Under the pieces are notes generated by a model. That model made no database searches. It saw only the letters and a list, made by a program, of their open reading frames with translations, and had not been told where the DNA came from. The position numbers and the translations under genes were made by a program. A DNA stretch of 64,000 nt from Amycolatopsis sp. QT-25. GTDB lineage: Bacteria; Actinomycetota; Actinomycetes; Mycobacteriales; Pseudonocardiaceae. Position 1 is the first letter of the stretch; each line of letters starts with the position of its first letter. Below are positions 5,878 through 10,735 of the stretch, piece after piece. The stretch covers positions 5,766,001 through 5,830,000 of the forward strand of contig NZ_CP120210.1 in the NCBI RefSeq assembly GCF_029369745.1, given 5' to 3'.

Positions 5878-5917
5878 GTCCGACTTCTTGATTGGCGCCG
5901 ACCTTGGGGAGACTCCA

Positions 5918-7168
5918 ATGAGCAACATCGACGTCGTGGTCACCGGGATGGGCGCGACCACGCCGCTCGGCGGGGACGTCGCGTCCACGTGGGACGGCCT
6001 GCTCGCCGGCGCGAGCGGGATCCGCCGCATCGAAGCCGACTGGGTCGACGAACTCGAACTGCCGGTGAAGATCGGCGCCATGCTCGCCGTCGACCCGTCC
6101 GAAGTCCTGCCGCGGGTCCAGGCCCGGCGGCTGGACCGCTGTGAGCAGGTGGCGCTCATCGCCGCCCGGCAGGCTTGGGCGGACGCGGGCTTCGAGCAGC
6201 CGACCGACGAGCATCAGGATGTGGAACCCGAGCGCCTCGGGGTGACCATCGGTACCGGTGTCGGCGGTCCGGTCACCCTGATCTCCCAGAACGACCTTCT
6301 GCACAAGCAGGGACTCCGCAAGGTCTCCCCGCTGACCGTGCCGATGCTGATGCCGAACGGCCCCGCCGCACACGTCGGGATCGACCTGAAGGCACGTGCC
6401 GGTGTGCACTCGCCCGCGTCGGCCTGCGCGTCGGGCGCGGAAGGCATCGCCGCCGGCTACGAGATGATCCGCTCGGGCCGTGCCGACGTCGTGATCGCCG
6501 GTGGGGCCGAATCGTGCATCCACCCGATCACCCTCGCCGGTTTCGCCCAGGCGCGGACGGTGTCCACCCGCAACGACGACCCGGCCAAGGCGTCCAGGCC
6601 GTTCGACGTGAACCGTGACGGTTTCGTCCTCGGCGAGGGCTCCGGTGTCGTGATCCTGGAGCGGGCGGACCGGGCCAAGGCCCGCAACGCGCGGATCTAC
6701 GCGCGGCTGAGCGGGTACGGGATCACTTCGGACGCCTACCACATCACGGGCAATCACCCGGAGGGCGTCGGCCAGATCGCCGCCATGCGGCAGGCGATGA
6801 CGATGGCCGGGGTCTCCCCGACCGACGTCGGGCACGTCAACGCGCACGCCACCTCGACGGTCGTCGGTGACGTCGGCGAGGCCGCGGCGATCCGCAACGC
6901 GGTCGGCGAGCACGTCGTGGTGACCGCTCCCAAGGGCGCGCTCGGCCATCTGGTCGGCGGTGCGGGCGCGGTCGAGGGCATCGCCACCATCCTGGCGATC
7001 TACCACGGGCTCATCCCGGCGACGCTGAACCTCGAGGACCTGGACCCGAAGGTGCAGCTCGACGTCGTCTCCGGCGAGGCGCGCAAGGTCGAACTGGGCG
7101 CGGCGATCAGCAACTCGTTCGGTTTCGGCGGGCACAACACGGCGCTGTTGTTCACCCCGGCGGCCTGA
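5918..7168 (+). CDS. fabF: 3-oxoacyl-ACP synthase II (KAS II)
   Basis: Elongating condensing enzyme of type II fatty acid synthesis. The start is set at ATG 5918 (MSNIDVVVTGMGATTPLGG) because the KAS fold begins immediately and a ggggag ribosome site lies about 8 bases before it. It yields 416 residues, the usual length. Active-site Cys170 lies in SPASACASGAEGI, and the two histidines are His310 (NAHATSTVVGD) and His344 (GALGHLVGGAGAVEG). The FGFGGHN glycine-rich loop is near the C-terminus. It follows acpP by 40 bases and ends at the palindrome at 7176, the probable operon terminator. Confidence 0.97.
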   Translation: MSNIDVVVTGMGATTPLGGDVASTWDGLLAGASGIRRIEADWVDELELPVKIGAMLAVDPSEVLPRVQARRLDRCEQVALIAARQAWADAGFEQPTDEHQDVEPERLGVTIGTGVGGPVTLISQNDLLHKQGLRKVSPLTVPMLMPNGPAAHVGIDLKARAGVHSPASACASGAEGIAAGYEMIRSGRADVVIAGGAESCIHPITLAGFAQARTVSTRNDDPAKASRPFDVNRDGFVLGEGSGVVILERADRAKARNARIYARLSGYGITSDAYHITGNHPEGVGQIAAMRQAMTMAGVSPTDVGHVNAHATSTVVGDVGEAAAIRNAVGEHVVVTAPKGALGHLVGGAGAVEGIATILAIYHGLIPATLNLEDLDPKVQLDVVSGEARKVELGAAISNSFGFGGHNTALLFTPAA

Positions 7169-7175
7169 CGCCGTA

Positions 7176-7232
7176 AGTACATGAAGGCCCCCTTCCTTGC
7201 GCTAGACGCAAGGAAGGGGGCCTTCATGTACT
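7176..7232. repeat. Palindromic repeat at the end of fabF, 26-base perfect arms
   Basis: Arm 7176-7201 (agtacatgaaggccccc...) and its exact complement 7207-7232 enclose a five-base loop. It lies 7 bases after the fabF stop and probably ends the fab transcript. Its atgaagg...ccttcat outer arm is the same as in the copies at 52091 and 62506, while the inner bases differ but remain paired. Confidence 0.9.
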
Positions 7233-7279
7233 TCGGGGTGCTCGCGGCCGAGGGGCGTGGGCGGGGTAAGAGCTGCAAT

Positions 7280-8197
7280 GAGCCTTTTCCAACTTGGTTT
7301 GGGTTGGTGGGGTGTGTTGGTGGGCTGGGTATGGCGAAGCTCCTGGTAGATGCGTGGAACGACCAAGAACCATGCACTGCCAGGAGCTTCGCTGTGTTGT
7401 CTTACCCCTCGGCGATCACGTTGTCCAGCCAGACACTGGCCGGGTTGACCCGGATCATCCAGCAACACCGGCGCGCGATCAGGTCGCGCTGGCGCCGGCT
7501 GTCCTGCCAGCGCCAGGCCCTGCTCGTGCTGGCCCACTTGCGTAACGGCGACACCTACGCCCGCCTGGCCGCCGGATTCCGTATCGGCGTGGCCACTGTG
7601 TGCCGCTATCTGCGCGAAACCATCGACCTGCTCGCCCAGCGCGCCCCGTCCCTGACCGCCGCGTTGTGGCAGCTCGCCTGGAGCCACAACAACTACGCCA
7701 TCCTCGACGGCACCGTCATCCGCACCGACCGCATCGCCACGAACAAGCCCTACTACTCCGGCAAACACCGCCACCACGGCATCAACCTGCAAGCCCTCAC
7801 CGACCCCTACGGCCGGCTGCTGTGGATCTCCGACGGACTACCCGGCGCGACCAACGACACCACCGCCGCCCGCCACCACCGCATCTGCGACCTGGCCGAC
7901 CAGTCCGGGATCCGGCTGCTGGCCGACAGCGGCTACGACAACGTCGCCTACGGGGTGATCACTCCGTACAAGAACCACCGAACCGCCCACCAGCCCAAAC
8001 GCCCACTCGGACCTGCCTACACACAGGCCAACACAACACTGGCGGCCGTACGCGGCCGAGGCGAACGCGGGTTCGCCACCCTCAAAAACTGGCGAGTACT
8101 CACCCGCGTCCGCACCAGCACCCACCGCGTCACCGCACTAGCCAAAGCCATCCTCACCCTCGAACACAGCCTCAGCTAACCAAGATGGAAAAGGCTC
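7280..8197 (+). mobile_element. IS5-family insertion sequence, complete, 918 bp
   Basis: Near-perfect terminal inverted repeats close the element: gagccttttccaacttggtt at 7280-7299 and its complement at 8178-8197, with one mismatch. A three-base duplication AAT lies on each side (7277-7279 and 8198-8200). An ANT-type 3-bp duplication is the kind described for ISL2-like members of the IS5 family. One transposase gene fills the element. It is inserted in the left arm of a palindromic repeat; joining 7273-7279 to 8201-8250 restores a 28-base-arm palindrome. Confidence 0.88.
7394..8179 (+). CDS. IS5-family transposase (DDE_Tnp_4-like)
   Basis: About 261 residues from the GTG at 7394; the frame is open further upstream, so the start is a judgement based on typical family length. 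An N-terminal helix-turn-helix (YARLAAGFRIGVATVCRYL) precedes an RNase H-like core with candidate catalytic residues in AILDGTVIRTDR, LLADSGYDN and RGRGERGFATLKNW (Asp-Asp-Glu). The C-terminus ILTLEHSLS reaches the right terminal repeat. No frameshift or internal stop was seen, so the element may be active. Confidence 0.9.
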   Translation: MLSYPSAITLSSQTLAGLTRIIQQHRRAIRSRWRRLSCQRQALLVLAHLRNGDTYARLAAGFRIGVATVCRYLRETIDLLAQRAPSLTAALWQLAWSHNNYAILDGTVIRTDRIATNKPYYSGKHRHHGINLQALTDPYGRLLWISDGLPGATNDTTAARHHRICDLADQSGIRLLADSGYDNVAYGVITPYKNHRTAHQPKRPLGPAYTQANTTLAAVRGRGERGFATLKNWRVLTRVRTSTHRVTALAKAILTLEHSLS

Positions 8198-8309
8198 AAT
8201 GAAGGGACCTTTCCTCGCAAATTTTGCGAGGAAAGGTCCCTTCATTGCAGAACACGACTGGGGCGCGGGGGATGCGGCCTCCGGATGCGTCAGTGCGCCG
8301 GAGGAAGGG

Positions 8310-10670
8310 TCAGGCCTCCGAGCGCTTCACCAGATGCCGGCCGATCCACCAGGCCGCTTCCACGAGCACGATGCCCACCCCGGCACAGGCGAACGCCGAC
8401 AGCGTGTACGCGCTCACGCTCGGATCCAGCGCGAAGAACTTTTGCGTGAACGGGATCAGGAACAACGCGAGCGTCAGCACGACCATCCCGCCGATCAACA
8501 GGATCTTCCACCACCGGTACGGGCGCGCGACGATCCCGAGCACCCACAGCGCGATCGCGATGAGGGTGATCAGCGCGGTCGTCCCCGCCTGGATCTTGTC
8601 CACTTCGGACTGACCGGATCCCTTGTACACCAGCAGGTAGCTCACGAAGGTCGCGGTGGCGATGATCAGCCCGGCCGGAACGGCCATCCGCATCACCCGG
8701 CCGACGAAGCCGGAGCGGGCGCGTTCGTTGTTCGGCGCGAGCGAAAGCACGAAGGCGGGCAAGCCGATCGTGAACCACGCGGTGATGGTGATGTGCCGCG
8801 GCAGGAACGGGAACGGCACCTGCGCGATGCCGACCATCAGCGCCAGCAGCACCGAGTAGACCGTCTTGGTGAGGAACAGGTTCGAGACGCGCTCGATGTT
8901 GCCGATCACCCGCCGCCCCTCGGCGACGACGTGCGGCAGGGTGGCGAACTTGTCGTCCAGGAGCACGATCTGCGCGACCGCGCGAGTGGCGGGGCTGCCG
9001 GCGCCCATGGCGACACCGATGTCCGCGTCCTTCAGCGCGAGGACGTCGTTCACGCCGTCGCCGGTCATCGCGACGGTGTGGCCCTTCGACTGCAGGGCAC
9101 CGACCATCGCGCGTTTTTGCAGCGGGGTGACGCGGCCGAAGACAGCGCGGTCCTCGACGGTGTCGGCCAGCTTCTCGGCGTCCTCCGGCAGCTTCCGCGC
9201 GTCGACGGGTTTGTCCGCGCCCGGCAGATCCAGGGTGCCCGCGACGGCGCCCACCGAAATGGCGTTGTCGCCGGAGATGACCTTGACCGCGACGTCCTGA
9301 TGCGCGAAGAAGTCCAGGGTGTCCTTCGCGTCCGGGCGGACCTTCTGCTCCAGCACCACGAGCGCGACCGGCTCGATGTCGCCAGGCCCCTCGGGGGCGT
9401 CGACGGCTCGCTCCGCACGGCCCAGCAACAACACGCGCAGGCCGCGAGAGCCGATCTTCTCGGCCTCCGCCCGGTGTTCCCCTTCGGGCAGCAGGACGTC
9501 GGCCGCGCCGAGCACCCAGTCGCCGTCGGCGCCGAACGAGGCACCGCTCCACTTGCGCGCCGAGGAGAACGGCATGGTCGTGGAGATCCGCCAGCCCGGG
9601 TCGGTCCGGTGCGCCTCCGCGATCGCCTGCAGGCTCGCGTTCGGCCGGGGATCGGCGGCGGCGAGCGCGGCCAGCGCGTGGTCCACCGGGTGGCCCGGCG
9701 TGATCTCCCGGACCTCGGAAAGCCGCATCGCGTTCTCGGTGAGCGTGCCGGTCTTGTCCGCGCACACCACGTCGACCCTGGCGAGGCCCTCGATCGCCGG
9801 GAGTTCCTGCACCAGGCACTGGCGCTTGCCCAGCCGGATGACACCGACCGCCAGCGCGACGCTGGTCATCAGCACCAGTCCTTCGGGCACCATCGGCACG
9901 AGCGCCGCGACCATGCCGCGCAGCGCGTCCGGCCACGCCTGGTCGCCCATGAGCTGGTTGTAGATGGTCAGCGCGCCCGCTGGGACGAGCAGGTACGTGA
10001 TGAACTTGAGGATCCTGTCGATGCCTTGGCGCAGCTCCGACTTCACCAGGGTGAACTTGCTGGCCTCCGCGGCCAGTTTCGCCGCGTAGGATTCGTCGCC
10101 GATGACGTCCGCGCGGTAGGTGCCGCTGCCCGCGACGACGAAGCTGCCGGAGAGCACCTTGTCGCCGGGCTGTTTGACCACCGGATCGGACTCGCCGGTC
10201 AGCAGCGACTCGTCGACCTCCAGCGCGTCGGCCGTCAGCGTCGGGCCGTCGACGACGATCTTGTCGCCGGGCCCCAGTTCGACGAGGTCGCCGAGCACGA
10301 CGTCCTCCGGGGCGATCTCGGCACTCCGTCCGTCACGGCGGACCGTCGGCTTCGCCTGCCCGACGATGGCGAGCCGTTCCAAGGTCCGTTTCGCCCGGAG
10401 TTCCTGGATGATGCCGACCGCGCTGTTGACGATGATCAGTCCGCCGAACAGCCCGTCGATGAAGTATCCCGTCGACAGGATGAGCACGAACAGCACGCCG
10501 TAGATGGCGTTGATCCGGGTGAAGACGTTCGCGCGGATGATCTCGCCGGTGGTCCGGCTGGTCTTCGTCGAGACGACGTTGGTCTGGCCCGCGGCCACCC
10601 GCTGGGCGACCTCTTCGCTGGTGAGCCCCCTCGAGGCGTCGGTCAGCAGGGCCGGCTGATCTGGTGCCAT
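8310..10670 (-). CDS. Cation-translocating P-type ATPase (HAD-IC)
   Basis: An integral membrane ion pump of 786 residues from the ATG at 10670. The phosphorylation site DKTGTL has Asp305, the actuator domain has TGES at 158-161, and the ion-site helix carries PMVPEGL (about 260-265). [17 protein letters not shown] is the hinge motif of the P domain. Six or more membrane helices are arranged in the usual 2+2+4/6 pattern. There is no N-terminal heavy-metal CxxC domain, and the PEGL motif resembles the Ca2+/Mg2+-type (P2/P3-like) branch, so heavy metals are unlikely; the ion is not determinable. It follows two small genes on the same strand. Confidence 0.9.
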
Positions 10671-10735
10671 GCCCGCGACTCTATTCCGCCCGGTTCCCGC
10701 CCGCGTCAGCCTGGGGGACCATGTCATCCCTTACT

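Follow-up and report, generated by a model that had tools for sequence, protein, structure and literature searches.

The insertion sequence (IS) discussed here lies in a 64,000-nucleotide stretch of Amycolatopsis sp. QT-25 (hereafter, the window), i.e. positions 5,766,001 to 5,830,000 of contig NZ_CP120210.1, in a genome of 8,010,145 bases. Two palindromes stand there in the space separating the genes for a beta-ketoacyl synthase and a P-type ATPase, and the second one is split by an element of the IS5 family. Excising this IS together with one copy of AAT gives CTGCAATGAAGGGACCTTTCCTCGCAAATTTTGCGAGGAAAGGTCCCTTCATTGCAG, a 57-bp palindrome with perfect 28-bp arms and 1 nt between them, which matches exactly what a preliminary description of this DNA had claimed, namely that the IS sits inside a palindrome with a restorable AAT duplication. 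The hairpin energy was -52.0 kcal/mol before the insertion and is -45.1 kcal/mol after it. The palindrome itself is not a chance occurrence, since 49 inverted repeats scoring at least 14 were found in 400 kb of the genome as opposed to 0 in a first-order Markov control. With a probability of about 0.6, in our estimate, a CANTG core and a palindromic repeat together set a hot spot for the insertion of such elements, and the hot spot as such is real and general in the genomes surveyed. Nested repeats are also common, each half being itself a short palindrome such as GCAATGAAGGGGCCTTTCATAGC (window 7175-7233 and 8198-8250, as well as genomes G053, G073 and P. flavalba), and these could be folded either as one long hairpin or as two short ones.

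All 4 copies of the IS in this genome, whose mapping the preliminary description had called for, are inserted in palindromes, each at a stem foot that reads TGCA[A/T]T|GAA, and these four palindromes represent three different sequences. Of 80 loci inspected, the 27 with believable ends were used, with L104 and L123 re-registered by hand and L076 retained despite its differing duplications. Palindromes were scored by a gapless inverted-repeat score in place of a perfect-seed hairpin finder, which was rejected for missing the looser repeats of genome G003. Among elements tipped GAGCC in Amycolatopsis and Prauserella, 12 of the 17 mapped insertions are in palindromes: 4/4 in the present genome (G000), 4/4 in P. 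flavalba, 3/4 in G003 and 1/3 in G027. Relatives in other genera showed no insertion in a palindrome of score at least 14 (0/21), though one of these relatives, L114, is only a few bases away from a 12-bp hairpin. The palindrome is 3' of the transposase gene in 4/4 cases here and 5' of it in 4/4 cases in P. flavalba, for which we offer no explanation.

Could the copies have spread together with their palindromes, through recombination or segmental duplication, instead of by repeated insertion? The palindromes are dispersed repeats, and the window and locus L035 are identical from TGCAAT to CATTGCAG, as such a history would have it. That said, no two of the four loci share their outer flanks, three sequences are represented among the palindromes, the AAT duplication is intact in 3 of the 4 copies, and IS-free palindromes at the same junctions in relatives contradict this explanation, which we consider highly improbable. 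In particular, the window junction was readable in 16 of 18 close relatives (L133-L150; L145 is a run of N there), and these contain the IS in no case and at least one palindrome in each. In two of them, G053 (L133) and G034 (L135), the predicted empty palindrome, CTGCAATGAAGGGGCCTTTCATAGC...CCCCTTCATTGCAG with 28-bp arms, stands IS-free at the predicted place, which is the orthologous empty site that the preliminary description had asked for and which bears out its view that the repeat predates the IS. At L035, where 10 of 11 relatives were readable, a CAATG-footed palindrome is present in two (L256, L259) and a related palindrome ending GC[T/C]ATGAA in five; at L036, where all 11 relatives were readable, the CAATG foot is present in two (L264, L268); and at L037, only L276 of the 11 relatives examined was readable beside the site, with a palindrome at that place. 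In other words, none of the 4 copies is without an empty orthologue in which a palindrome stands at the place of insertion. The relatives retain palindromes at the same junctions and yet the sequences of these are quite different, both arms having changed together (window 7169-8309; L133-L149 and L252-L274), as if hairpins were exchanged or rewritten in place at conserved junctions.

A second group of elements, tipped GGGGTTGTTT, GAGGTTTTCT or GAGGNTTTTT and found in ten further Amycolatopsis genomes, targets a different repeat, whose units (e.g. AGCGCCCCAATGTGGCCTTCGGTGCGTC...GGGGCGCT) are entered at their ends, at CCCC-AAT-GTGG. The survey of this second clade, including genomes G073 and G011, covered 45 loci, hand-picked from a longer hit list, of which 11 were dropped for ends that were not believable (L017, L013, L317, L324, L011, L021, L023, L026, L325, L046 and L048). 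In the second clade proper, 23 of 25 sites with believable ends are in the repeat unit, the exceptions being L306 and L321, and CAATG is the sole sequence that these sites have in common with the window site. The sequence CCCAATGTG occurs 350 times in G025, as compared with 14 for its control, and two types of IS, with tips GGGG and GAGG, enter the same repeat end. Outer sites outnumber inner ones by 22 to 1; we make no claim of a preference here, as outer forms already predominate in G025 (236/350) and G031 (199/232). At L310 (around 926-928 kb of G025), another, different IS seems to have one of its ends (GAGAAAACCTC) some 40 bp away from the first IS within one repeat, which looks as though the repeat had been entered twice. 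Few palindromes are present in genome G011 (4 in 200 kb), which has 0/4 insertions in them, while G073 is rich in them (23 of score at least 16 in 200 kb), with a common family that has no CANTG at its foot; the duplications are unlike at 3 of the 9 sites in these two genomes.

Turning to the genomic setting, 464 kb of the genome contain 49 palindromes of score at least 16, of which 21 lie between convergent, 21 between tandem and 5 between divergent genes, with 2 within called frames, one of the latter being the window's own convergent junction. Convergent pairs make up 67 of 321 gene pairs overall and 21 of 47 palindrome positions (binomial P 0.0002), and we infer that the palindromes act as bidirectional terminators between convergent genes. 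The palindromic insertions of the GAGCC-tipped group in Amycolatopsis are between convergent genes in 8 of 8 cases, those of P. flavalba in 2 of 4, and the 24 second-clade sites run comprise 13 convergent, 6 tandem, 1 divergent and 4 that the crude gene finder left undetermined (L323, at a contig end, was left out of the hairpin-energy and gene-setting run). The idea of terminator palindromes as safe landing sites, also put forward in the preliminary description, fits both these 8 insertions and the nearly whole stem. One might then argue for survivor bias, i.e. that insertion at CANTG is nearly random and that copies persist only where they are harmless, in the spaces between convergent genes, and the contrast between 8/8 insertions and 22/49 sampled palindromes is indeed significant (Fisher P 0.0035). 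However, survival cannot account for all 4 copies being at the same 3 bases of a palindrome, only about 1% of CANTG sites lie in palindromes, and relatives in other genera persist outside palindromes, all of which makes survivor bias an improbable account.

How much of the preference is a matter of sequence is harder to judge. The target model derived from 24 non-palindromic sites of relatives, with L123 and L114 excluded, is C-ANT-G. This core predicts only 1-2% of insertions in palindromes, and the widest models from non-palindromic sites at most 12%, and the counts obtained have a probability, under the core model, of 1e-8 in G000, 1e-5 in G003, 0.05 in G027 and 3e-8 in P. flavalba. The palindromic setting thus appears to attract insertions beyond the CANTG core. 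Motif counts taken alone were dropped as an argument: in the sampled background, which is about 6% of the genome, 9 of 729 CANTG sites (~1%) and 3 of 4 occurrences of GCAATGAA lie in palindromes, and these figures cannot separate sequence from structure.

Several observations weigh against a role of the palindrome, and should be considered together. Five close relatives (L039, L040, L044, L052 and L121; two are in G027, the others in G003, P. endophytica and A. suaedae) are inserted outside palindromes, and a palindrome is therefore not required. In G073, 0/5 insertions are in palindromes despite their abundance, and since these have no CANTG foot, palindromes alone are not sufficient. Of the 25 second-clade sites, 13 have a near inverted repeat with a gap of up to 16, and 18 have one with a gap of up to 70, longer arrays accounting for several of the sites without one. 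Finally, a 9-bp model trained on hit sites assigns 29-67% of the target weight to palindromes, so that sequence could account for much of the preference. Taken to its conclusion, this last point would mean that the transposases recognize a 9-12-bp site, TKCANTGMA in the GAGCC-tipped group or CCCCAATGTGG in the others, which happens to be abundant in dispersed repeats, and that palindromy plays no role. In line with this, the 9-mer TGCAATGAA has 63 occurrences genome-wide, largely in palindromes, as compared with 3 of its reversed control, and 14 intact palindromes carry it at both ends; CCCAATGTG is in similar excess in G025; and one target outside palindromes, L039, matches TKCANTGMA perfectly. 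With P values of 0.05 (G000), 0.6 (G003), 0.9 (G027) and 0.007 (P. flavalba), the 9-bp model is excluded at most weakly. Yet the model is circular, since the hit sites were its training set, and even so it underpredicts P. flavalba (0.29 for each insertion), the non-palindromic targets of close relatives at L044, L052 and L121 are alike in little but the core, and one and the same repeat end is used by ISs tipped GGGG and by ISs tipped GAGG. On balance, we regard recognition of sequence alone as possible, though rather unlikely. What the preliminary description had said of cruciform or hairpin DNA as a preferred target therefore stands in part: palindromes are strongly preferred (4/4 copies; 12/17 in two genera), whereas recognition of cruciform or hairpin DNA itself does not follow, with the CANTG core also needed, G073 at 0/5 and a longer motif accounting for much.

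What is directly observed comprises the insertions and their target rule, together with the empty sites and the retained stem. In the explanation that we prefer, in which core and palindromic repeat act together, the transposase of this IS5-family element would insert at a C-ANT-G core, and dispersed hairpin repeats would serve as hot spots, with the palindromes of Amycolatopsis and Prauserella having CANTG or CTATG in the stem, a few bases in from its foot. Insertion would duplicate ANT and leave most of the stem standing, and the presumed bidirectional terminator between convergent genes would survive, keeping the cost of insertion low. More speculatively, several distinct IS5-family lineages in Amycolatopsis and Prauserella may each home on the foot of the hairpin repeat of their host clade, sensing the base of the extruded or bent palindrome along with the CANTG core, in which case a change of repeat family would redirect the ISs; we hold this wider version only tentatively.

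As for the element itself, the features of the locus are collected in the table below. The domain matches of the transposase (PF13359, 1.8e-25; PF13613, 4.2e-17) mark it as a DDE transposase of the IS5 kind, and both terminal inverted repeats and a short target duplication, as membership of the family asks, are present. Its best NCBIfam match is the IS5 model NF033581, at 117.7 bits and thus under the cut-off of 140, where it should be said that the NCBIfam IS5 models describe sub-families and do not define the family. Judging from relatives, translation more likely starts at GTG 7394 than at ATG 7331. We tentatively liken the element to the ISL2-like group of the IS5 family. A 3-bp ANT duplication is a trait of that group, and the element shares with it the length of about 0.9 kb, terminal repeats starting with GAG, the ANT duplication and the HTH_Tnp_4 and DDE_Tnp_4 domains; it differs in the below-cut-off score of its nearest model. 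The one copy without an intact AAT duplication, L037, has ATT and AAT, and L042 has AGT and AAT; such unlike duplications may have arisen by point change or by recombination of one copy with another. A search for plasmid copies of the IS gave 127 records, none covering 80% of it, and these were not used.

Table 1. Features at the insertion locus, in window coordinates.
Feature	Position	Strand	Remarks
Beta-ketoacyl synthase gene	5888..7168	+	left convergent neighbour
Neighbouring palindrome	7175..7233	.	other family (AAGTACATGAAGG..., 27-bp arms); foot without CANTG; unhit
Outer end of left palindrome arm	7273..7279	.	CTGCAAT, severed by the IS
Target-site duplication, left	7277..7279	.	AAT
IS5-family insertion sequence	7280..8197	+	918 bp; one of 4 near-identical genome copies, 0-2 bases apart
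Left terminal inverted repeat	7280..7291	+	GAGCCTTTTCCA
Transposase frame	7331..8179	+	HTH_Tnp_4 + DDE_Tnp_4
Leader hairpin	7334..7392	+	AGGAG in 3' arm, shortly upstream of GTG 7394
Right terminal inverted repeat	8186..8197	+	TGGAAAAGGCTC
Target-site duplication, right	8198..8200	.	AAT
Remainder of target palindrome	8198..8250	.	still hairpin-forming, stem ~24-26 bp
P-type (E1-E2) ATPase gene	8310..10727	-	right convergent neighbour

Separately from the target, the IS leader has a conserved hairpin over the ribosome-binding site (window 7325-7425; relatives L053, L060 and L070-L123), which could possibly block translation of the transposase. Its loop, GGTARGACAGC, is able to pair with the first codons, GCTGTCYTACC, in most relatives, giving a pseudoknot over the start. 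In the pseudoknot alignment (A1; 21 sequences, 20 of them distinct), 93.3% of the cells are paired and changes on both sides occur in 18 cells, as opposed to 4.2 in shuffles. This second helix is mostly lost in the window's copy of the IS, and an Rfam search of the window gave no matches.

If core and palindromic repeat do act together, what would this mean? The different tips at one repeat, the one group of ISs at differently spelled repeats and the palindrome-rich genome without the core make letters versus shape testable, and offer natural replicates for the old question of whether transposases choose extragenic palindromes by the one or the other. Landing where an intergenic hairpin stays mostly whole would, moreover, let an IS multiply at little harm. 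We did not find same-position targeting by IS5-family elements, or these Amycolatopsis repeats, in the literature searched, which left most subscription journals outside, and the part of PMC3390384 available to us, examined for IS5 and repetitive extragenic palindromic (REP) sequences, reports no such targeting. Same-position targeting by IS5-family elements in actinobacteria thus looks new, while the habit of targeting REPs is itself known; the Amycolatopsis repeats are REP-like by form only, and no search for RAYT genes was made.

As far as the accessible part of PMC1525189 goes, ISs that target REPs are known in five IS families, with ISPsy8, ISPa11, ISPpu9, ISPpu10, ISRm22 and ISRm19 named as 'type 1' elements by Tobes and Pareja (2006). 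Like these, the present element uses one position in a palindromic repeat for all copies in a genome, and joining the flanks restores the repeat. The single position holds in this genome and in P. flavalba (4/4 each), and not among the 82-85% identical relatives in G003 (3/4) and G027 (1/3). The type 1 ISs named there belong to IS3, IS110 and IS4, whereas the present element is of the IS5 family and actinobacterial. The stem sequences hit also differ, and the point of insertion is near the foot of the stem here, as opposed to the symmetry axis for ISPsy8 and ISRm22. The IS5-family ISNm1106 is listed there as type 2, near or adjacent to a repeat in 4/7 and 7/14 cases, so that shape-aided homing, if true, would amount to same-position targeting by members of a family that the portion seen of PMC1525189 lists with loose association only. 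Finally, the existing copies of IS481 in Pseudomonas fluorescens SBW25 are likewise associated with repeats, each having a REP at one end according to the sections at hand of PMC11708052; those repeats are proteobacterial REPs, unlike the ones described here.
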